Assembly (NCBI RefSeq): GCF_000316195.1
Contig: NZ_JH994111.1
Coordinates: forward strand, 1,443,403-1,507,402
Direction of reading: 5' to 3'
Origin: Brachyspira hampsonii 30446
GTDB taxonomy: Bacteria; Spirochaetota; Brachyspiria; Brachyspirales; Brachyspiraceae
Length of the DNA stretch: 64,000 nt
Notes under the pieces: generated by a model
Told to the model about the DNA's origin: nothing
The model's database searches: none
What the model saw: only the letters and a program-made list of their open reading frames with translations
Shown: one piece after another, positions 44,730-57,083 of the stretch
Layout of the letters: each line of letters begins with the position of its first letter
How positions within the stretch are numbered: the stretch's first letter is position 1
Position numbers and translations under genes: made by a program

Positions 44730-45458
44730 TTAATACATTCCGCCATCAACGCTTATAACTTGTTTAGTAATATAATTAGAATCATCAGACAATAAAAAAT
44801 TTACAGCATTAGCAACATCTTCAGGTTTTCCTATTCTTTTCAAAGCTATCATATTTTTAGCATGCTCTATTATTTCATCATTTATCATCTCGCTTTCAAT
44901 AATACCCGGAGCAATACAATTTACAGTAATATTTCTTTTACCTAATTCTATAGCTAAAGATTTAACAGCACCTATTAGTCCCGCCTTAGAAGCAGCATAA
45001 TTAACCTGCCCCCTATTACCAATAATACCTGATATTGAACTTATTGCTATAATTCTTCCGCCTTTTCTTGCTCTTATTATATGCATAATAATAGGATTAA
45101 CTACATTATAAAAACTTTTAAGATTAACATCCATAACATTATCCCATTCATCTTCAGTCATAGCAGGAAAAGCATTGTCCATAGTTATTCCAGATGAAAG
45201 CACTATGCCGTAATAAGAACCGTTTTCTTCTATATCTTTAACAAGAATATTTTTAACCTCTTCTCTGTCTGTAATATTCATTTTCAAAAATCTTATATTA
45301 ACATCATAATCTTTTGCAAAACATTTTATTTTTTCTATAAAAGAATCATTTTTATTGTAGCACATTACAGCATCGTATCCGTTTTCTATAACTTTTTTTG
45401 ATATAGCAAATCCGATACTTCCTGAAGCACCTGTTATTAAAATAGATTTATTTTTCAT
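44730..45458 (-). CDS. 3-ketoacyl-ACP reductase, ApeQ/FabG-like
   Basis: 242-residue short-chain dehydrogenase that reduces the beta-keto group of an ACP-bound chain with NADPH. The TGASGSIG cofactor loop is at residues 9-16, and catalytic S141, Y154 and K158 (ISSISG...YAASK) are intact. It ends with SDDSNYITKQVISVDGGMY, typical of FabG. A frame from 45491 is longer, but ATG 45458 has GGAT upstream and starts the Rossmann fold, leaving a 16-base gap to the dehydratase gene. Last of eleven genes in the operon. Confidence 0.85.
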   Translation of the reverse strand: MKNKSILITGASGSIGFAISKKVIENGYDAVMCYNKNDSFIEKIKCFAKDYDVNIRFLKMNITDREEVKNILVKDIEENGSYYGIVLSSGITMDNAFPAMTEDEWDNVMDVNLKSFYNVVNPIIMHIIRARKGGRIIAISSISGIIGNRGQVNYAASKAGLIGAVKSLAIELGKRNITVNCIAPGIIESEMINDEIIEHAKNMIALKRIGKPEDVANAVNFLLSDDSNYITKQVISVDGGMY

Positions 45459-45474
45459 TTTATATCCGTTTATA

Positions 45475-45966
45475 CTATATTTTAAAAGCATCTGCCAAAC
45501 TTTCCATAACCATTATAAAACAGTCCATAATTTTATTGCCGTCATTAACTATTTTTTTATATTCATCTAAAGTATTTATATCATCATTATAAAGAACAGT
45601 CTCTGCATCATAATAAGCGATTTTTTTATCATTAAAAGTTTCTTTCACAAATATATAAACTCTATTATCAGATCTTATCTTTTGTATATAACAATCAGCT
45701 TTTTTTATATTTAAAATAAAACCTATTCTTTTATTATCATCATTATCAGATAAAGCACCATTATAAGCAGCAGCAGTCTGTGCTGCATATTCAGTAAATA
45801 TATAAGAATCTATACCTTCAGGCTCTGAAATATCATAAAAAATATTATCTTTCTTAATATCAGAAAAAGAAAGTATCTCTTTATCATCAAAATTAATGTC
45901 CGCAATGCCATCTATTAAAAGCATTTTTCCTTTATGCGGTATATTCAATTTATATTTATTTTTCAT
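45475..45966 (-). CDS. 3-hydroxyacyl-ACP dehydratase subunit, ApeP-like
   Basis: 163-residue hot-dog-fold protein. The opening IPHKGKMLLIDGI matches the L-P-H-x-x-P-M-L-L-x-D motif of ApeP-type dehydratases, with the catalytic-type histidine, and IFTEYAAQTAAAYNGA near 58-73 matches F-x-E-x-x-A-Q. In known systems ApeP forms a heterodimer with ApeI (here 51502-51840). It is translated after an 18-base gap from the ketosynthase gene. Function as a dehydratase is inferred from fold, motif and context, because sequence similarity to standard FabZ is low. Confidence 0.75.
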   Translation of the reverse strand: MKNKYKLNIPHKGKMLLIDGIADINFDDKEILSFSDIKKDNIFYDISEPEGIDSYIFTEYAAQTAAAYNGALSDNDDNKRIGFILNIKKADCYIQKIRSDNRVYIFVKETFNDKKIAYYDAETVLYNDDINTLDEYKKIVNDGNKIMDCFIMVMESLADAFKI

Positions 45967-45984
45967 AATATTATTAATACAAAA

Positions 45985-47157
45985 TTATTTTCCCACTATC
46001 AAACAAGTATTGCTTCCTCCAAAACCAAAGGATACGCTCATACAATTTTCAAGTCTTTCGGCCTTAACTTTAGCTGTAACCAAATTTATTTTATCCAATG
46101 TATCATCATACTCCCCATCATATAAATGCGGAGGAAGTATTTTTTCTTTATTAATATCAGAAAGTGCAATATAGCAAACTCCAAGCTCCATAGCAGCTGC
46201 AGCCCCTATAGTATGACCGAATGATGTTTTACTAGAACTGCAGTATATATTAGCAGCATTAACTATATTGAGAGTAGTGCTTTCCATTTTATCATTTATT
46301 GAAGTGCCTGTGCCATGAAGATTAATATAATCTATATCATTTATATTCATATCAGCATGTTTTAAAGCATCATTGATACATTTGCTTGTAGTAGTGCCGT
46401 TTATATCAGGACTAGTCATGTGATGAGAATCTGAATTACTATTATAGCCTTTAAGATATAAAGCATTTTTTGAATCAATTAAATTATCTTTGGCAAGAAC
46501 TGTAAAAGCAGCACCTTCTCCTAAATTTATACCTTTTCTGTTTTTTGAAAAAGAATTAGTTTTATTATAATCAACCACTTCAAGCGAATCAAATCCGTAA
46601 ACGACAGTGTCAGTTACAACATCAGCTCCTCCAACTATAGCAGCATCTATCACACCGCTTCTTATAAGCTCATCTGCCGCTATTATGGCATTTGCACTAG
46701 AAGTACATGCAGTAGATACAGTAAATGATATGCCTGAAACATCAAAATATTTCTTTAAAAAATCACAGCATATATTAAGGCTTTGCATAATCAATATTTT
46801 TTTCTCATCAATTACACTTCCTTTTAATATATAATCCTTAGTTTCATCGCTTCCATTCTCGCAAGTACCTACTATAACGGATATTCTATTTTTTCCGTAT
46901 CTCTTTTTAGCCTCATCTATTATAGGCTTTAATTGATTAACCGCATGCAAAGCCATTTTATTTATTTTATTATTATAAGGGTTATCAAGCTCAAAATTAA
47001 AAAAGTCATTATCTATTTTTCCTAAGAAAAATTTTTTGGCATAATCATTATTTTCTTTTAAACCGTATTCTCCGTTTAAAAAATATCTATTATATAATTC
47101 TTCCTTATTCCTAGCCAAACAATTAATAATTCCGAAATCTAATAATACATTACTCAT
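45985..47157 (-). CDS. Beta-ketoacyl-ACP synthase, ApeO/FabF-like
   Basis: 390-residue ketosynthase that extends the ACP-bound chain with malonyl-ACP. The catalytic triad is complete: C151 in VSTACTSSANA, H281 in NLHGTGTS, and H315 in KTSFGHTIGAAA, with K310. It ends with SFGFGGSNTCLIVGK, as in FabF. In aryl-polyene systems ApeO is the active partner of the chain-length factor ApeC, and a matching CLF-like gene heads this operon. The N-terminal 60 residues are somewhat divergent from FabF. Housekeeping FabF is less likely given the company. Confidence 0.85.
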   Translation of the reverse strand: MSNVLLDFGIINCLARNKEELYNRYFLNGEYGLKENNDYAKKFFLGKIDNDFFNFELDNPYNNKINKMALHAVNQLKPIIDEAKKRYGKNRISVIVGTCENGSDETKDYILKGSVIDEKKILIMQSLNICCDFLKKYFDVSGISFTVSTACTSSANAIIAADELIRSGVIDAAIVGGADVVTDTVVYGFDSLEVVDYNKTNSFSKNRKGINLGEGAAFTVLAKDNLIDSKNALYLKGYNSNSDSHHMTSPDINGTTTSKCINDALKHADMNINDIDYINLHGTGTSINDKMESTTLNIVNAANIYCSSSKTSFGHTIGAAAAMELGVCYIALSDINKEKILPPHLYDGEYDDTLDKINLVTAKVKAERLENCMSVSFGFGGSNTCLIVGK

Positions 47158-47204
47158 ACAATACCTCAGAGTCGAGTATATAATTCTATAACAAAAAAGT
47201 CAAA

Positions 47205-49517
47205 TTATTTAATATTATTATTTTTTATCAATTTATTAAAATTAAATAATACAGGAGAAATTATAAATGATGATAAAATTCCAATAAATAAAAATAATCC
47301 GAAAGATTTTACAGGTATAAAACTGCTGAATGCTAATGTGCCAAATGATAATACAGTTGTCATCATAGACAAAAATACCGCTAAAAATGTAATCTCTTTA
47401 TCTGCCGCACTATTTGAGAAAAATATAGAATAATCTATTGATATTCCTATTGACAGTATCAAAGCAAATATAGAAAATATATTTATATTAATACCAAATA
47501 TAGAGTGTATTGATAAATTTATTAATACAGACATTAACTGTACAATTATTATAGCTATAGCCTTGCTAGTTTCAAAAAATATTATCATAGCTATAAATAT
47601 TATAATATAGGCAATTACAGCCATTTTTACAGCAGTTTTTGCCGTATTATCCAAAGCGTCATTAATTTCCTCATTTATATTGAATATTTTTACATCATTA
47701 TTATCTGATTTTATTATATTATTTGTATCATAATCACTTGTTGCTATAATAAAATATTTATTATTATTAGTAACTATAACTTTATTTAAATCATTGAAAT
47801 TTGTATTTTCAAGTATTTTATTTATATCAAGAACTTCATCTTTAGTGTCTTCAAATTCTGATTTTATTTTATTATAAGAATAAAAATCTAAATTCAGAGC
47901 ATCGGTCTGTTTTTTTAATATAGGAATTAATTTATCATTTACTAACTTAATATTATCTCTTTGCCTCTCTTCTGAATATAATATTTTAGATATAGCTGTG
48001 TAATTATTATTACTAAAATTATCTTCTATACTCTCTTCTGCTGATAATGCATCTGAAAGAGTATCCCCTCTTGAAATAATAATATTTTTTGCAAGAGATG
48101 TATTCAATCTATTATAAACTTCTCTTTCGCTATTAAATAAAAAGTCAGGTGTATTATAAAGCTGATTAGCAGAGAAATTTATTTTTATTTTAGGTATGAA
48201 TATTATAGAAACTATAATAACTGCTATCAATATAATTAATACATTTCTTATGCTTATTATTTTTACATAATCATTCAATATATTCTTACTTCTATTAAGT
48301 ATAGACTTATTTATAACACTTTTATCATTCTTAAATAATACAGGATATATTATGTTTACTGTGAGAAAAGAACTTAAAAGTCCGAATATGGAAAATACTG
48401 CTATCTGTTTCAACAATATAAGAGAAGTTAAAGATAATGATAAATAACTCACTATAGTAGTTATAAATCCCAAAAGCATGCTTGGAAATATTTTTCTCAA
48501 TACTTCTTTTTTATCTTCTTCATTATACCATTCAGTTATAAAATGTATAGAATGATCTATTGATATACCTATAAGGCTTGTTCCGAATACAAATGTAAAT
48601 ATATGAATGGAATCAAAAAATACAGATGAATATAAAAATGCTGATAATCCGGATAATAATATAGTACACATTGAAATTATATAAGGCTTCAAAGATTTGA
48701 ATATAAAAATAAATATAAGACAAATAACAATAAATGACACTATAGATATAATAGTAATTTCAAACTTGGCACTTTTCTGACTATAATAAGTATGCACTGG
48801 TACGCCTGAAATATATGTATTTACATTTCCTTCTATTTCTAATATTTTTAAATAATCTGTAATATCATCAAAAAACTTTTCGTTATCAATACTTTTAGGC
48901 ATATCAATATTAACAAGAATATTATATTTATCATTATAATTTATAAACTGTATTGAATCTCTGGACTGTAAATTATTTTCTGAAGAGAGAATATCATTTA
49001 TTTTTGAATTAACAGTTAAAAAAGGATCATCTTCAATATTATCTACTATAGGTATAAAAAAAGGAGAATAAAAATTTGCTAAGGCATTTTTAGCAACAAT
49101 ATACGCCTCATCATTCAATAAATAATTTCTTATCTCTTTTGAAAGAAGCTGATATTTATATTTTATCATTATAGTTAAAATATCATCATAATTTCTGGAA
49201 TATAAATTGACTGAAACATTACTATAAGACTGTTTTATATATTCATCTAATTTTAATGCATTATATTTTGCATCATCAAAATTTTCACTTTCTATAAATA
49301 TTTTTACACTGCTTGAATTTTTATAAAAGAAATCTTCCAAAGGTTTTTGAAAATCTTTATCTTCTAAGAACTTAGGTGTTATAGATAAAAAATTAGTATC
49401 TATTTTTGCTGTTTTTTCAAATCTTACTAAAAATAATATAACTGCAAATAAATGAAAAATTATCCAAATAATCGTAAAAATGGTTCTTCTATTATTATTC
49501 AGAATAGTTTTATTCAA
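47205..49517 (-). CDS. MMPL/RND-family lipid exporter, ApeM-like
   Basis: 770 residues with the RND double-repeat layout: a first helix (about 13-30), a large extracytoplasmic loop (about 35-250), five helices (about 255-400), a helix near 425, a second loop (to about 635) and a final five-helix set (to 760). It contains IGISIDHSIHFITEWYNEED and the second-half equivalent LILSIGISIDYSIFFSNSAA, the paired G-x-x-x-D-Y/H signature of MMPL proteins. Expected to move the finished lipid product, or its LolA-bound form, from the inner membrane. It overlaps the LolA-like gene by 8 bases. Confidence 0.85.
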   Translation of the reverse strand: MNKTILNNNRRTIFTIIWIIFHLFAVILFLVRFEKTAKIDTNFLSITPKFLEDKDFQKPLEDFFYKNSSSVKIFIESENFDDAKYNALKLDEYIKQSYSNVSVNLYSRNYDDILTIMIKYKYQLLSKEIRNYLLNDEAYIVAKNALANFYSPFFIPIVDNIEDDPFLTVNSKINDILSSENNLQSRDSIQFINYNDKYNILVNIDMPKSIDNEKFFDDITDYLKILEIEGNVNTYISGVPVHTYYSQKSAKFEITIISIVSFIVICLIFIFIFKSLKPYIISMCTILLSGLSAFLYSSVFFDSIHIFTFVFGTSLIGISIDHSIHFITEWYNEEDKKEVLRKIFPSMLLGFITTIVSYLSLSLTSLILLKQIAVFSIFGLLSSFLTVNIIYPVLFKNDKSVINKSILNRSKNILNDYVKIISIRNVLIILIAVIIVSIIFIPKIKINFSANQLYNTPDFLFNSEREVYNRLNTSLAKNIIISRGDTLSDALSAEESIEDNFSNNNYTAISKILYSEERQRDNIKLVNDKLIPILKKQTDALNLDFYSYNKIKSEFEDTKDEVLDINKILENTNFNDLNKVIVTNNNKYFIIATSDYDTNNIIKSDNNDVKIFNINEEINDALDNTAKTAVKMAVIAYIIIFIAMIIFFETSKAIAIIIVQLMSVLINLSIHSIFGININIFSIFALILSIGISIDYSIFFSNSAADKEITFLAVFLSMMTTVLSFGTLAFSSFIPVKSFGLFLFIGILSSFIISPVLFNFNKLIKNNNIK

Positions 49518-50088
49518 AATATTTTATCTCCTCAGAAGTTATTTTATTAGATTTAGATAAAACTTCCATTATATATTCAGTAGTGCTGTTATTAGAAGAA
49601 TACATTTTTATTTTTTCTATATATCCGGAAGTAGAAAAAGTTACTTCTATCTTTTCTATTATTTTTTTAATCTCGCTAGTTTTGGGGCTATAAACTGCAG
49701 TATTTCCATTCATACTTTGATTGAATGATTCATTTATAGTTTTCTCATCATAAGTAAAAATTGATTTTATTATATTAGCTATCTGAGCAAACATAGCATT
49801 ATTAGAATCAGCCATAACTTTCTTTTTTCCGTCAGGCATTATCTGAACTACATTTTTTTCCCCCATTACCGTTACAGACTCTTGAGGAGTTTTAGTAAAC
49901 CAGCATATACCATAACCATTTACTATAATAAAATCCCCTGAAGATTCAAAACTTCTTCCCTTCTGAGTTACTATTTGAGTATAATTGCCTTTCAATAGTT
50001 TTGCATTTTTATATTCATCTTTAACTTGAGTAAACAAAACAGATGTAAATATAAAGCAAGTCATAATTATAAAATAAATATTTTTCAT
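49510..50088 (-). CDS. LolA-like periplasmic lipid carrier, ApeL-like
   Basis: 192 residues with a signal peptide (about 1-20, VLFTQ). The mature protein shows LolA-like strands: LLKGNYTQIVTQKGRSFESS near 34-53, FIIVNGYGICWFTKTPQESV near 58-77 and later SEIKKIIEKIEVTFSTSGYI. Such carriers take hydrophobic molecules across the periplasm; ApeL is proposed to do so for aryl polyene lipids. It overlaps the following MMPL gene by 8 bases, so the two are translationally coupled. It is separate from the housekeeping LolA expected elsewhere. Confidence 0.8.
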   Translation of the reverse strand: MKNIYFIIMTCFIFTSVLFTQVKDEYKNAKLLKGNYTQIVTQKGRSFESSGDFIIVNGYGICWFTKTPQESVTVMGEKNVVQIMPDGKKKVMADSNNAMFAQIANIIKSIFTYDEKTINESFNQSMNGNTAVYSPKTSEIKKIIEKIEVTFSTSGYIEKIKMYSSNNSTTEYIMEVLSKSNKITSEEIKYFE

Positions 50089-50093
50089 ATTGA

Positions 50094-50525
50094 TTATCCA
50101 TTATTATTAATTTTTTCTATTCTATCTACAAAATCTTTAGGATTATTCAAAAAACCTTTTCTAGTTTCTGAATCTATAGGCATTTGCAATGTGCTTGATT
50201 TAGATATGATTTTATTATTTTCATCATAAAAAGTATATTCCACTCTCATGCCATTTAAATATTCGGTAATAGCTGTATGTATCCTAATTTTTTGATTTAA
50301 TTTAATAGAATTTATATATTTAATTTCTAATTTTACTATAGGCCACATAATACCTTTAGCAGTCATAATATCATAATTATAATCTATAATTTCAAGCATA
50401 GCCTCCCTAGCCTGCTCCATAAACTTTATATAATTTCCATGCCAAACAACACCCATAGGATCCAAATCATAAAAAGACGGCTTTATATAATAATCATTTT
50501 CTAAATAATATTTTTTATTTGACAT
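50094..50525 (-). CDS. 4HBT-type thioesterase, ApeK-like
   Basis: 143-residue hot-dog thioesterase. The catalytic region DPMGVVWHGNYIKFMEQARE near 21-40 carries the Asp and Tyr positions of the 4-hydroxybenzoyl-CoA thioesterase family. It likely hydrolyses stalled or finished acyl-ACP/acyl-CoA. The gene is 3 bases after the acyltransferase gene and 5 before the LolA-like gene, so it is firmly inside the operon. The last 20 residues are divergent. Confidence 0.85.
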   Translation of the reverse strand: MSNKKYYLENDYYIKPSFYDLDPMGVVWHGNYIKFMEQAREAMLEIIDYNYDIMTAKGIMWPIVKLEIKYINSIKLNQKIRIHTAITEYLNGMRVEYTFYDENNKIISKSSTLQMPIDSETRKGFLNNPKDFVDRIEKINNNG

Positions 50526-50528
50526 AAA

Positions 50529-51491
50529 TTAATCCCCTTTATACCAAAAATCATGAAAATTATACCACTGATATGGATATTCTATAGCTTTTTGTTCTAT
50601 AATAGAAGCAAACTCTTTTGTTAATTCTAATATAACCTCATTTTTCTTTTTTCTATTTTTTAATTCTTCATCATTCAGTTTTATTTTTGAAGGATATATA
50701 TAAAAATTATATTTCTTTGAAAGTATTTTATCATTCTCTCTCAAAGCAAAGAAATAATAAACAGGATATCTAAGCAAAATAGGTATCAAAAAAGCTCCGC
50801 ATGGGAAAGGTGCTTCTTCTCCTAAAAAATTTATATAATTAACTTTATCAGTTTTATTGCTTGTTCTGTCTCCTGCTATCGCTACTATCTCACCATTATT
50901 CAATTTATCCTCAATACTTATTATAGTATGCGGTCCTATATTAGAAGCATCTATAAAGTCTATAAAAGAATTATTTTTACTCTCACTAAGAACTATATTA
51001 ACATTTTTATTAACCTTAGGATCTATTATTATATTTATTTTATAGTTTTTTATAGGATTACCTTCATTAATAGCTGCTAATCCTTTTAAAAGCTCAATAT
51101 TTCCTATATGAGAAAATAATATTATCATTCCTTTTTTTCTATTAAGCAGATCAATAACTTCATTATAACTATCTTTAGTTTTTATTACCAAATCAGTTAT
51201 AGGTATATCTCCATTCCAAGCTGAAAATTTTTCTGAAACAGATACTACAAATGAAAGTAAATGCCTATAAGAACTAATAAAATTCGACTTGATTTTTTTA
51301 TTATATTTAGACATTTTTTTTAAATACTCTCTGGAAGCCTGCATTCTAGTTCTTGAATAAAAGAAATAAAATATACTTATAGGAATAAGATAAAGTATTA
51401 CAAAAGTTCTTCCTAAAATTTTATAAACAGATATAGAAAATAATGCTTTCCATCTCTTACCTATCTCTTTTTCTTCCGTCCAATGAGCCAT
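50529..51491 (-). CDS. LpxL/HtrB-like acyltransferase, ApeJ-like
   Basis: About 320 residues beginning MAHWTEEKEIGKRWK, the characteristic entry of the APE-cluster acyltransferase, so the ATG at 51491 (AAAGG ribosome site) replaces a longer frame from 51548. One N-terminal membrane helix (about 15-45) precedes a lauroyl-acyltransferase-like domain. The acyl-transfer motif HIGNIE (H-x4-E) is present, as is the later VAIAGDRTSN segment. Probably esterifies the polyene chain to a lipid at the inner membrane. Substrate not established; homology to LpxL-type enzymes is weak but clear in motif order. Confidence 0.8.
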   Translation of the reverse strand: MAHWTEEKEIGKRWKALFSISVYKILGRTFVILYLIPISIFYFFYSRTRMQASREYLKKMSKYNKKIKSNFISSYRHLLSFVVSVSEKFSAWNGDIPITDLVIKTKDSYNEVIDLLNRKKGMIILFSHIGNIELLKGLAAINEGNPIKNYKINIIIDPKVNKNVNIVLSESKNNSFIDFIDASNIGPHTIISIEDKLNNGEIVAIAGDRTSNKTDKVNYINFLGEEAPFPCGAFLIPILLRYPVYYFFALRENDKILSKKYNFYIYPSKIKLNDEELKNRKKKNEVILELTKEFASIIEQKAIEYPYQWYNFHDFWYKGD

Positions 51492-51501
51492 AGAAAAACC
51501 T

Positions 51502-51840
51502 TTAAGAAAAATACAATTTACCGTCTGAATATTTTTTATTATCATCATACATTTTAAATGAAATAATATTATCAGAAAAATGAGATTCTATAAAAATATT
51601 TGTATTTGGAAGAATCATATTTGTAAATTTTAATTTTAATAATTTACTTATTATTAACTTTTTATTAGAAATATCTTTAAATATATCAGCAAGCATTTTT
51701 ATTTGAGCTATAGCAGGAAGAATTTTAAAATTATCAAAATGTCCGTCAAAATAAATTAAATCTTCACTTATAAATACTTTAACTCTAAACATATCAGGTG
51801 TATGTTCTTCTATAGTATAATCTATAAAAAAATCAGACAA
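51502..51840 (-). CDS. Small dehydratase subunit, ApeI-like (FabZ fold)
   Basis: 112-residue hot-dog protein. It carries YFDGHFDNFKILPAIAQIKM near 31-50, a variant of the F-x-G-H-F-P-x-x-P-x-x-P-G-V-x-Q motif of FabA/FabZ, with the catalytic-type His. The usual acidic residue further along the helix is not evident, which fits a subunit needing a partner (ApeP-like, 45475-45966). It begins one base after the synthetase stop and is followed by the acyltransferase after 10 bases. Confidence 0.8.
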   Translation of the reverse strand: MSDFFIDYTIEEHTPDMFRVKVFISEDLIYFDGHFDNFKILPAIAQIKMLADIFKDISNKKLIISKLLKLKFTNMILPNTNIFIESHFSDNIISFKMYDDNKKYSDGKLYFS

Positions 51841-51841
51841 T

Positions 51842-53188
51842 TTAATTTCCTTCCATTATAGCATCAAGAGCCTCTCTGTCAATTTTACCAATTTCATTTC
51901 TAGGTATAGAATCAACAAAATATATTTTTTTAGGCAATACTATCGTTTCAAAATAATCTTTTAAATAATAAATAACATATTTCTTCATATCTTCCAAATT
52001 TCTATTTTTGTTATTCATTACTATAAAAGAAGCAATATATTCTCTTTTATCAGATTTACAGTATATAGTATAACTGTCTTTAAAATGCTTATCCATCAAT
52101 ATTTGTCTGTCTATCTGCTGTACGCTTATTCTTTTACCCTCTATTTTTACTATTGAATCTTCTCTGCCTAAAAGTTCAAACTCATCATCATTTTTCATAT
52201 TCACAACATCGCCCACATGTATCCAAACATCATCACCTGTATATCCTGAACAGCATTCTATACTTCCATTTTCATCAACTTTAATTTTTACAACACTAAG
52301 TCTTGTCCATAATTTATTTTCACTTCTTCGTCTGTATCCAATAGCACCAGCCTCAGTACTTCCATAAATTTCTGTAACATCACTACCAAATACATCTTTG
52401 CAAAGATCATTAATTTTCTCTTCAAGCATTCCTGTAGAAGAAAATAAATACCATTTAGATTTTATTTTTAAAGAAGATGCATCTATTCTCTTTAAAAAAG
52501 CAGGCGTAGTAACCATAGTAATTTTGTCATAATCTGAAAAATTATTAGCAGTCTCTAAATAATTTATTCTATTATTTATACATCTAACTTCAAGCATAAA
52601 AGGAACTAATACTGCAAAAACAAAACCATAACTATGATAATGAGGAACTGTATACAAAAATAAAGAATCTTTAATACTATCTGTAAATTGATTAACTATT
52701 TTAACCGCCTCAGCTTCAAACTGCTTTAAAGTTTTTTCTATAAGTTTAGGATATCCTGTAGAGCCTGAGGTATAAAAATTTATATATACATTTTCATCTA
52801 TTATCGTTTCTTTAAGTACATCAAACCATTTATCATTACACTCGCTTTCAAAAACTTCATCTAAATTTAAATCTGATTTTTCTGTATCTGATATATAAAC
52901 CATAGTATCATTTATTATGCTTTCAACATATTTAGGACTATTATTGTTTAAAACATTTACTCTTTTTTTAAGAATAAATCCGGCAGTAATAACTGAAATA
53001 AATCTATAAGCATTTTCAATAAATACTGTAATAGTATCTTTTTCAAATTTAGAAATATATTCTAAACTTTTAACTATATCAGAAACAAACTCTTTATATT
53101 TTATAAAATTCTTATTTTCTTTATGAATAAGAAAAATATCCTCTGAATCTTTTAATGAATAAAAATTTGTATTGCTTAATTTTCTCAT
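51842..53188 (-). CDS. AMP-dependent acyl-ACP synthetase, ApeH-like
   Basis: 448 residues of the adenylate-forming family, activating a carboxylate as acyl-AMP and passing it to the ACP. The P-loop reads YTSGSTGYPKLIEKT near 130-144, the A5 region EIYGSTEAGAIGYR near 275-288, the A7 D-D-V-W-I-H-V-G-D region and the hinge LLGREDSIVKIEGKRIS follow. The C-terminal lysine motif RNEIGKIDREAL is present. It is somewhat short, as in ApeH-type enzymes. It directly follows the ACP gene (7 bases), which supports loading of a starter acid. Confidence 0.85.
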   Translation of the reverse strand: MRKLSNTNFYSLKDSEDIFLIHKENKNFIKYKEFVSDIVKSLEYISKFEKDTITVFIENAYRFISVITAGFILKKRVNVLNNNSPKYVESIINDTMVYISDTEKSDLNLDEVFESECNDKWFDVLKETIIDENVYINFYTSGSTGYPKLIEKTLKQFEAEAVKIVNQFTDSIKDSLFLYTVPHYHSYGFVFAVLVPFMLEVRCINNRINYLETANNFSDYDKITMVTTPAFLKRIDASSLKIKSKWYLFSSTGMLEEKINDLCKDVFGSDVTEIYGSTEAGAIGYRRRSENKLWTRLSVVKIKVDENGSIECCSGYTGDDVWIHVGDVVNMKNDDEFELLGREDSIVKIEGKRISVQQIDRQILMDKHFKDSYTIYCKSDKREYIASFIVMNNKNRNLEDMKKYVIYYLKDYFETIVLPKKIYFVDSIPRNEIGKIDREALDAIMEGN

Positions 53189-53195
53189 AATATTT

Positions 53196-53456
53196 TTATT
53201 TATTATCTGAATTTTCCCTTATATATTTTGCCAAAGTTGCAACAGAATAAAAATACTGTTTATTATTTTCTTCTATATCAGAAAAAGTAATGTTAAACTT
53301 TTTTCTAATAGCAACACCTATTTCCAAAGCATCTATAGAATCAAGTCCTAATTCATCTCCGAATAAAGGAGCATCTGTATCTATATCTTCTATGGATACG
53401 CCTTCCAAATTTGCCGATTCTATTACAATTTGCTTTATTTGATCTTCAATACTCAT
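53196..53456 (-). CDS. Acyl carrier protein (ApeE/F-like)
   Basis: 86-residue ACP. The phosphopantetheine serine is S40 in ELGLDSIDALEIGVAI, preceded by acidic helix I. The long acidic first half and the F-N-I-T-F-S-D-I-E-E tail resemble the specialised ACPs of aryl-polyene and similar clusters more than housekeeping AcpP. Aryl-polyene clusters usually carry two ACP genes; only one is present. Start ATG follows a GGAG site (minus strand AAGGAGAAAACTATATG). Confidence 0.85.
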   Translation of the reverse strand: MSIEDQIKQIVIESANLEGVSIEDIDTDAPLFGDELGLDSIDALEIGVAIRKKFNITFSDIEENNKQYFYSVATLAKYIRENSDNK

Positions 53457-53506
53457 ATAGTTTTCTCCTTAATTATAATTTCACATAAATCTATCAATAA
53501 AATATA

Positions 53507-54211
53507 TTATTTTTTTATTAATTTTATTTTTCCTAATTCTAAATCGGAAGTATCAGTTGATATAAATTTAATAAAATCTATAATTGAATTTTCATCTTTA
53601 TCTGCATCGCTGTCAATTGAATCAATATAGATATTTGGATCTTTTTTAGAAATAAGACAGGAAAATGCAAATGAATAATTACCATCTGCAGATATCTCTT
53701 CATAACTCTCTGGTAATTTTTCATCGGCTATTAATATAAGAGCTTTATCATCATCAGAAGTTTTTAAGAAAGCAATGGCCTGTATAAGAGCTGTATCTAT
53801 AAAATTATTGTAGCATGTAACTGCAATAGCTCTTTTATAATTTTTATAAAAAATAGTAAGCTGTGCTACTGCTGTGTTAAAAACAGAAAAACTAAAAAGT
53901 GCAGGAGATACCTCATGTTCTGTAACTATCTTTTTTGACATATTATACTGCTGTTTTATTTCTCCGTATTTAGATACAAAAAAAAATGGTATCTGATCAT
54001 TTGCATTTAAAATATTTTTAACTGATTCAAAAGAAAATTTAGTTATTTGGCTTAATCTTCTTTTTTGAGCTTTTGGTATGAAATCCAATTCAGGATTAGA
54101 ATCTCCATAAGTAATTTTTATATCATTATTTATATTTTCCAATATAATTTTTTTATCCATATTAGGAGCAAAAAAATCCCAATCCAACACTCTAAAACTT
54201 AAATCCAGCAT
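53507..54211 (-). CDS. Chain-length-factor-like ketosynthase fragment, ApeC-like
   Basis: 234 residues of the short beta-ketoacyl-synthase-like family (Ketoacyl-synt_2). FIPKAQKRRLSQITKFSFES near 45-64 matches the typical ApeC beginning. There is no active-site Cys motif like TACxSS, as in chain-length factors that form a heterodimer with the active synthase (here ApeO-like, 45985-47157). It begins the operon, directly behind a promoter at 54251-54278 and an AGGAAG site, and is 50 bases ahead of the ACP gene. A 234-residue length agrees with ApeC. Confidence 0.8.
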   Translation of the reverse strand: MLDLSFRVLDWDFFAPNMDKKIILENINNDIKITYGDSNPELDFIPKAQKRRLSQITKFSFESVKNILNANDQIPFFFVSKYGEIKQQYNMSKKIVTEHEVSPALFSFSVFNTAVAQLTIFYKNYKRAIAVTCYNNFIDTALIQAIAFLKTSDDDKALILIADEKLPESYEEISADGNYSFAFSCLISKKDPNIYIDSIDSDADKDENSIIDFIKFISTDTSDLELGKIKLIKK

Positions 54212-54250: not shown

Positions 54251-54278
54251 ATTATACAAAATTATCCTATAAAGTCAA
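54251..54278 (-). promoter_or_regulatory. Promoter of the aryl-polyene-like operon
   Basis: On the minus strand TTGACT (54273-54278) and TATAAT (54251-54256) with a 16-base spacer, 40 bases before the first start codon. The divergent merR promoter lies 140 bases away. The rest of the 267-base gap is AT-rich without other visible elements. Confidence 0.65.
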
Positions 54279-54419: not shown

Positions 54420-54450
54420 TTGACATTGGAGTGCACTCTAATGCTATAAT
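54420..54450 (+). promoter_or_regulatory. MerR-type promoter/operator in front of merR
   Basis: TTGACA (54420-54425) and TATAAT (54445-54450) are separated by 19 bases, the long spacing characteristic of MerR-activated promoters. The spacer holds the dyad TTGGAGTGCACTCTAA (54426-54441), perfect in its central ten bases. It drives merR itself and the following gene. Confidence 0.85.
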
Positions 54451-54478: not shown

Positions 54479-54871
54479 ATGACAATAGCAGAAGTTAGCA
54501 AAAAAACTGAGTTATCTGCTGATGCTTTAAGGTATTATGAAAGAATAGGAATAATACCAGAAGTAGAAAGAAGTGAAAGCGGAATAAGAAATTATACTGA
54601 TTATGATTTGGGCTGGATAGAGTTTTCAAAATGTATGAGAAATTCTGGTATGTCTATAGAATCGATAATAGAATATATTAAGCTCTATAATAAAGGCGAT
54701 GCTACATTGGAGGCTAGAAAACAGCTTTTAGTAAGTCAAAGAGATGCTATGCAGGAAAAATTAAATGAACTTCAGGCTACTTTAGATAAACTAAATAAAA
54801 AAATAGAAAATTATGGACATCAAATGTCAGTTCATGAAAAAGATATGCTTAAATCTAAAAATAATGATTAA
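54479..54871 (+). CDS. MerR-family transcriptional activator (AdhR/YfmP-like)
   Basis: 130 residues. A winged helix-turn-helix spans about 1-70 (MTIAEVSKKTELSADALRYY, then the wing with RNYTDYDLGWIEF) and a long dimerisation coiled coil follows (about 80-120). It has no metal-binding C-terminal cysteines; the only cysteine is C50. The type is therefore more like carbonyl/electrophile-sensing AdhR or related regulators, consistent with its reductase neighbours. Strong site AAGGAGGT precedes the ATG. It probably binds two sites, at 54426 and 55381. Confidence 0.85.
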   Translation: MTIAEVSKKTELSADALRYYERIGIIPEVERSESGIRNYTDYDLGWIEFSKCMRNSGMSIESIIEYIKLYNKGDATLEARKQLLVSQRDAMQEKLNELQATLDKLNKKIENYGHQMSVHEKDMLKSKNND

Positions 54872-56700: not shown

Positions 56701-56871
56701 GTGAGTTTATTGACAGCAGCAAATATAAAATTTAGGGTGTCTTTTAAGAGCCTTTAATCCATAATTTTTTATTAGCAACAACTATAAAAATTGCGAGCAT
56801 CTGCTAAATTTATTTGGCAGATACTTTGCCAAAGGCACGCAAAGCGAGCGAACAATTTTTATTAGCAACAA
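56701..56871 (+). repeat. Repeat copy 1 (about 171 bp)
   Basis: First copy of a recurring segment beginning GTGAGTTTATTGACAGCAGC and ending GAACAATTTTTATTAGCAAC. It contains an AGCCTTTAAT phrase, the stem ATCTGC(TAAAT..ATTTG)GCAGAT (56799-56822) and TTTGCCAAAGGCACGCAAAG (56825-56844). No coding capacity. With copy 2 it fills the 485-base gap 56599-57083. Confidence 0.8.
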
Positions 56872-56900
56872 TGAAATAAACGAGCTTCTAGAAATTTTAA

Positions 56901-57072
56901 GCGAGTTTATTGATAGCAACAAATATAAAAATTTCGGGCGCCTTTTAAGAGCCTTTAAGCCATAAATTTTTATTAGCAACAAATATAAAAATTGTGAGCA
57001 TCTGACAAATTTATTTGGCAGATACTTTGCCAAAGGCACGCAAAGCGAGCGAACAATTTTTATTAGTAACAA
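56901..57072 (+). repeat. Repeat copy 2 (about 172 bp), runs into the next ribosome site
   Basis: Second copy, close to copy 1 throughout, with the same ATCTG...CAGAT stem near 56999-57023 and the same TTTGCCAAAGGCACGCAAAG segment near 57027. Its 3' end runs into AATAGGAGCAATT and the ATG of the aldo/keto reductase at 57084, so the repeat boundary lies directly at the gene's leader. Confidence 0.8.
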
Positions 57073-57083
57073 TAGGAGCAATT

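Follow-up and report, generated by a model that had tools for sequence, protein, structure and literature searches.

A reduced aryl-polyene-type operon in Brachyspira hampsonii with a predicted polyene-lipid product

The best-known producers of aryl polyene (APE) pigments are Proteobacteria and Bacteroidota. A 64,000-nucleotide stretch of the genome of the spirochaete Brachyspira hampsonii 30446 (assembly GCF_000316195.1, contig NZ_JH994111.1, positions 1,443,403 to 1,507,402), referred to here as the window, carries 11 adjacent genes that resemble an APE biosynthetic cluster. This locus raises the question of whether the operon encodes an APE-type pathway and, if so, what starts the polyene chain. 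In this study, we found that the operon most probably encodes a reduced APE-type type II polyketide pathway, which is predicted from sequence comparison to make an outer-membrane polyene lipid. We place the probability of this reading at about 0.8, a figure that does not extend to an aryl starter.

The 11 minus-strand open reading frames (ORFs) were confirmed at positions 44730-54211 of the window. The start of ApeQ was reset to 45458 and that of ApeJ to 51491, because relatives align only from these conserved downstream ATGs and not from the longest-ORF starts. With these starts, the intergenic gaps are 16, 18, 47, -8, 5, 3, 10, 1, 7, and 50 bp. The gene order, C-E-H-I-J-K-L-M-O-P-Q, is the E. 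coli APE order in Table 1 of PMC8253772, and collinearity of 11 genes would arise by chance about once in 11 factorial. Each of the 11 proteins was compared with a set of 37 from two proteobacterial APE clusters and had its best match in the Ape protein of the same letter. The identities to the same-letter proteins of Moellerella (L090) and Pseudoalteromonas (L091) were 20-58%. An earlier note on this DNA, made by a model from the sequence alone, had described 11 adjacent minus-strand genes in Ape letter order with gaps of at most 50 bases, and both the arrangement and the order were borne out (gaps from -8 to 50 bp). The catalytic residues that it named in the ketosynthase (KS), the acyl carrier protein (ACP), and the ketoreductase, given in Table 1, were correct, with the numbering of the ketoreductase starting at Met12 of the ORF as listed. 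It had also guessed the genus rightly.

Profile searches and a comparison with APE families, both proposed in the earlier note, gave Pfam/NCBIfam matches alongside the same-letter best matches. The chain length factor (CLF) matched the type 2 N-terminal domain of ketoacyl synthases, and other proteins of the operon matched the ACP, AMP-binding enzyme, 4HBT, LolA, and MMPL/RND families. ApeJ was assigned to the lipid A acyltransferase family and ApeQ to the FabG-like reductases. The ApeI-like dehydratase match was weak, the best NCBIfam model for the KS (PRK09185) stayed below its cut-off, and ApeP alone had no Pfam match. The cluster ACP is 58% identical to Moellerella ApeE versus 34% to ApeF. 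All AMP-ligase motifs are conserved in ApeH, for which a PDB search at a strict cut-off returned no match. The histidine of the GHF motif of ApeI is kept in all aligned homologues, and the glutamate of ApeP precedes an AQ pair. The two residues are consistent with a single dehydratase site common to both subunits, as judged from the alignments. Thus, the APE-defining parts that were tested were all present: ApeO with a half-size ApeC CLF, ApeE/ApeH, ApeQ, ApeI/ApeP, ApeK/L/M, and the collinear order.

The KS and CLF were then placed among known proteins. The best PDB relatives of the KS are ApeO of Xenorhabdus (6qsp_A) and ApeO of Acinetobacter (7f28_B). For the CLF, PDB matches were limited to the ApeC chains of those same complexes, 7f28_A and 6qsp_B. 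The window's proteins are distant in sequence from both ApeO-ApeC structures, and the loop before the active-site Cys is shorter in the window's KS. In a tree of ApeO, ApeR, and FabF-type proteins, the KS falls in the ApeO group and not with ApeR or FabF. Its identity to Brachyspira FabF is 27-30%. The pocket residue His138 of AbApeO was considered as an indicator of an aryl starter and dropped, since this loop varies among APE ketosynthases.

Table 1. Features of the APE-type operon of B. hampsonii 30446, in window coordinates
Feature	Coordinates	Strand	Evidence
ApeC-type CLF, 234 aa, single thiolase-fold half	53507..54211	-	PF13723 5e-34; PDB matches are ApeC chains only
ApeE-type ACP, Ser40 in DSL motif	53196..53456	-	NF006617; ApeE match
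ApeH acyl/aryl-ACP synthetase, AMP-forming, motifs intact	51842..53188	-	TIGR02372 best model, below cut-off
ApeI hot-dog dehydratase subunit, GHF histidine, TTG start	51502..51840	-	34% to Moellerella ApeI, E 1e-14
ApeJ acyltransferase half, HX4E 'HIGNIE'	50529..51491	-	PF03279; 30% over 321 aa to Pseudoalteromonas acyltransferase
ApeK 4HBT thioesterase	50094..50525	-	TIGR00051 above cut-off; 36-37% to ApeK
ApeL LolA-like periplasmic carrier	49510..50088	-	PF03548 9e-13; flexirubin LolA2 best NCBIfam model, below cut-off
ApeM RND/MMPL-type exporter	47205..49517	-	ApeM of two clusters, E 1e-44
ApeO ketosynthase, C151/H281/H315	45985..47157	-	XdApeO 6qsp_A 1e-62; tree
ApeP dehydratase subunit, 'EYAAQ' glutamate	45475..45966	-	32% to Pseudoalteromonas ApeP, E 6e-14; alignment
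ApeQ ketoreductase, S141/Y154/K158	44730..45458	-	50% to Moellerella ApeQ
Putative operon promoter TTGACT-16-TATAAT, 40 bp upstream of CLF start	54251..54278	-	11/12 consensus bases; conserved

Compared with the APE cluster of E. coli CFT073 (ApeA-R, PMC8253772), Brachyspira keeps 11 of the 18 letters in the same order. It is without A, B, D, one of E/F, G, N, and R, and its J is without the glycosyltransferase half. Neither ApeR nor ApeF was found in the genome, in which the single other full-length KS and ACP are both housekeeping proteins. ApeG, ApeN, ApeD, and a glycosyltransferase are absent from the operon, to which that search was confined. In E. coli, APE-related metabolites are still detected when any one of A, B, D, F, J, K, or R is mutated (PMC8253772), and five of the seven letters missing from Brachyspira (A, B, D, F, and R) are therefore not needed for the polyene acid in that species. 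ApeO-ApeC of Acinetobacter builds a full-length polyene without ApeR (PMC8358021), so the loss of ApeR appears tolerable. The earlier note had listed the 11 genes correctly and passed over both the absence of A, B, D, F, G, N, and R and the reduction of J to its acyltransferase half. ApeR, F, D, G, N, a methyltransferase, and a glycosyltransferase are missing from the cluster. These results indicate that the Brachyspira cluster is a reduced form of the APE cluster.

We examined relatives outside the genus with outgroup sequences taken from plasmid records and genomes of the phylum. A contig scan with highly specific patterns recovered only Brachyspira and two unrelated Flavobacteriaceae ketosynthases. 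With a profile of the Brachyspira CLF, APE-type CLFs turned out to be common in other spirochaete families, with 39 genomes giving a match at E <1e-16, and several of these loci (L122, L123-L136) proved on inspection to be full or partial APE clusters with varied gene sets. The nearest outside relative is the full APE cluster of G330 (L122, L180), a genome of another family of the same phylum, whose KS is 51% identical to that of Brachyspira and forms a 100/100 clade with it in a tree that contained no Bacteroidota clusters. The G330 order is B-C-D-E-F-H(I fused)-glycosyltransferase-J-ammonia-lyase-K-L-M-phosphopantetheinyl transferase-O-P-Q-R, and the cluster additionally holds a methyltransferase and a membrane protein. 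The two clusters have C, E, H, I, J, K, L, M, O, P, and Q in common in the same order, with H and I fused in G330 only, whereas B, D, F, the glycosyltransferase, the ammonia-lyase, and R are present in G330 and missing from Brachyspira. An Sfp-type phosphopantetheinyl transferase is encoded by one gene elsewhere in the window's genome and is 36% identical to that of G330 over 147 residues. The Moellerella and Pseudoalteromonas clusters have D, F, G, N, and R, and that of Pseudoalteromonas adds an ammonia-lyase. In another spirochaete family, G038 (L047:1-11306) carries a very divergent APE-like set, in which the branch of the KS is long and the CLF-like match lies within a 608-aa frame.

PMC8863827 and PMC10904984 report antiSMASH 'arylpolyene' clusters for the gut spirochaete Treponema_D sp900541945. 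As described there, these share the cluster class and the phylum with the Brachyspira operon and differ in family. Given these reports, APE clusters in spirochaetes are not new in themselves. Among the papers searched, none linked Brachyspira to aryl polyenes.

By analogy with the Xenorhabdus, Acinetobacter, and E. coli systems (PMC8253772, PMC8358021), a sequence of reactions can be proposed. ApeH would adenylate a carboxylic acid starter and load it onto the phosphopantetheine arm of ApeE. The ApeO-ApeC pair would then elongate it with malonyl units, carried on ApeE or on the housekeeping AcpP because ApeF is missing. In each round, ApeQ would reduce the keto group and the ApeI-ApeP heterodimer, with His from I and Glu from P, would dehydrate the product, so that double bonds accumulate. 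ApeK may serve in chain release or proofreading, ApeJ would move the polyenoyl group onto a lipid acceptor, and ApeM together with ApeL would deliver the product to the outer membrane. The suggestion in the earlier note of a lipid-linked polyene is supported by homology as far as a polyene-lipid pathway is concerned; this support does not reach its aryl part.

Several points weigh against such a pathway. ApeG and ApeN, which belong to the transport set proposed for E. coli, were not detected in the operon; they were not found in the G330 operon either, with profiles built on two sequences only. Where PMC8253772 cites work on the Xenorhabdus system, ApeR is given as required for initiation. The window's genome contained no UbiC family member and no Rv2949c-like chorismate lyase, and no aromatic ammonia-lyase was found in it or in any of the 26 Brachyspira genomes. 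To our knowledge, there is no report of a yellow Brachyspira.

The starter was considered separately. In E. coli it is 4-hydroxybenzoate, made by UbiC (PMC8253772), and an ammonia-lyase sits inside the G330 and Pseudoalteromonas operons. Chorismate synthase is present in the window's genome. As no known starter enzyme was found, the starter would be scavenged, made by another route (e.g., XanB2-type), or non-aryl. We lean slightly toward an aryl acid as the most likely starter, either acquired in the gut or produced by an enzyme that these searches did not reveal. In the alternative, the same machinery would use a non-aromatic starter, with ApeH loading a short or branched fatty acid to give an alkyl-capped polyene lipid. 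This would account for a window genome without UbiC or an Rv2949c-like lyase and for 26 genomes without an ammonia-lyase, although the sister cluster in G330 has one, and for the disappearance of the aryl-ring methyltransferase. However, ApeH is strongly selected, the curated model that fits it best is for a 4-coumarate-CoA ligase (TIGR02372, below cut-off), and it shares 38% identity with the ammonia-lyase-linked ApeH of G330. Phenolic acids are common in the gut, which also counts against a fatty acid starter. We consider a non-aromatic starter unlikely, though well worth keeping in view. A wider proposal, to which we give slightly less than even odds, is that the 11 genes form a minimal polyene machine without a starter of its own, fed by scavenged gut phenolic or cinnamic acids or by a non-aryl starter. 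In the earlier term 'aryl-polyene-like', the assignment to the APE family stands, whereas the aryl nature does not follow, because the known aromatic-starter enzymes were not found.

We examined the distribution of the cluster within the genus. Of 26 Brachyspira genomes, 17 have the CLF and 16 have the cluster KS. Carriers include B. alvinipulli ATCC 51933 (G015), B. innocens ATCC 29796 (G017), and Brachyspira sp. G79 (G024); G016 is presumably B. murdochii. Gene order is kept in nearly all genomes with the cluster. The O-P-Q genes of G010 lie on another contig, and the locus of G021 is rearranged, with O-P divergent and K and Q missing. There, an in-frame fusion (L038:14385-15365) joins the ApeP homologue to a ChrA-like transporter. 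G005 has a lone intact CLF beside a ChrA-like pair (L033:3468-4193), and no cluster KS was found in that genome; the CLF is either a relic or reused. G011 shows a clean empty site, where a cyclophilin-like gene and about 230 bp are followed by ank-SIS-ABC-GT9 in the window's order. The assemblies of G005, G007, G013, and G020 are less than 90% complete. In a FabF tree, absence of the cluster was confined to one clade of six genomes and scattered cases, and presence and absence required 4 changes compared with 8 for shuffled labels, on a tree that is not strongly resolved. This distribution fits one old acquisition with later losses.

Selection on the operon was assessed from pairwise ratios of nonsynonymous to synonymous substitution (dN/dS) between the window and the copies in G023, G003, and G022. 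The values were 0.00-0.28 for ten genes (0.00-0.09 for the ACP), and ApeI was the single outlier at about 0.5. ApeI (51502-51840) looks like an intragenic recombinant, with a 5' half close to the G003 allele (L041) and a 3' half close to the G023 allele (L042). Its high dN/dS is partly explained by the different ancestry of the two halves. Both hexamers of the operon promoter are invariant over 11 Brachyspira loci, in an AT-rich region where promoter-like matches are common. By these sequence measures, the cluster is intact and under purifying selection. From the low dN/dS and the invariant promoter, the operon is probably functional. If the cluster were instead a degenerating relic whose product is no longer made, the genome with a lone CLF and no KS, the clean absence, and the rearranged locus would be readily understood. 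However, full gene order persists in most KS-bearing genomes and all 11 window genes are open. Together with dN/dS well below 1, almost 0 for the ACP, and the invariant promoter, this makes a relic very improbable.

Brachyspira haemolysis has long been tied to the ACP gene hlyA (PMC4917944, PMC2897892), and a membrane-active polyene haemolysin like granadaene could in principle be the product of the cluster. The genome has two ACPs, that of the cluster and one beside FabF and a FabG-like gene at C4:641 kb. The latter arrangement is that described for hlyA (PMC4917944). Thus, hlyA, flanked by fabF and fabG, encodes the housekeeping ACP and not the cluster ACP. The cluster is also present in B. 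innocens and probably in B. murdochii, so it does not follow strong haemolysis. B. murdochii has been described as weakly haemolytic (PMC2897892). We rejected the haemolysin reading, which is even less probable than a relic, because hlyA is housekeeping and the cluster occurs in species that are not strongly haemolytic.

The KS genes of the genome were counted in the same manner. Two long matches exceed the family cut-off, FabF at C4:641 kb and the cluster KS, and two further matches are weak and cover short stretches only. That the operon consists of duplicated fatty acid synthesis genes has next to no chance of being right: the ketoreductase does score above a general FabG model, but the KS and CLF are of the ApeO/ApeC type in domain and tree comparisons, fabF-acpP-fabG lie elsewhere, and LolA, MMPL, and ApeH share the operon in Ape order. 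The cluster is not housekeeping fatty acid synthesis, the genes for which are at C4:641 kb. The earlier note had named profile matches placing these genes in ordinary fatty acid synthesis, or a full separate APE cluster elsewhere, as findings that would speak against it; neither was found, and the genome holds only one other full-length KS and one other ACP.

Next to the operon, a divergent MerR gene (54479-54871) encodes an NmlR-like protein. Its promoter (54420-54450) is of the textbook MerR type, with TTGACA, a 19-bp spacer, and TATAAT over a palindrome. The palindrome has the consensus CATTGGAGTGCACTCCAATG, shows one mismatch in the window, and is nearly invariant over 11 genomes. Direct control of the operon by MerR is not claimed, as the operator-like palindrome lies at MerR's own promoter and the operon has a separate sigma-70-like promoter. 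The downstream ank, SIS, and GT9 genes were considered as cluster members and rejected, since GT9 is non-adjacent in several genomes and ank-SIS persist at the empty site. A short repeated DNA element is suggested at 56782-57081, where the translation of a minus-strand ORF is self-repeating (VRSLCVPLAKYLPNKF); a similarly odd sequence occurs in the K-L interval of L040 and L041.

APE pigments shield E. coli from oxidants and aid biofilm formation (PMC8253772). A compact, selected cluster would give Brachyspira a plausible envelope antioxidant, of which no mention was found in the genus literature searched; oxidant protection is the probable function. Some Brachyspira species cause pig disease, and the species that have lost the cluster provide natural controls. 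The class itself is widespread and known in spirochaetes, and the distinctive part here is the minimal form with its missing starter supply. As loss of any one of five of the seven absent letters is tolerated in E. coli, the Brachyspira genes come near to a minimal APE pathway. The missing starter gene raises a direct question, namely what primes the chain. If the starter is scavenged, the pigment would depend on diet, and if the starter has been switched, the product would be a new class of ApeO/ApeC polyene lipid.

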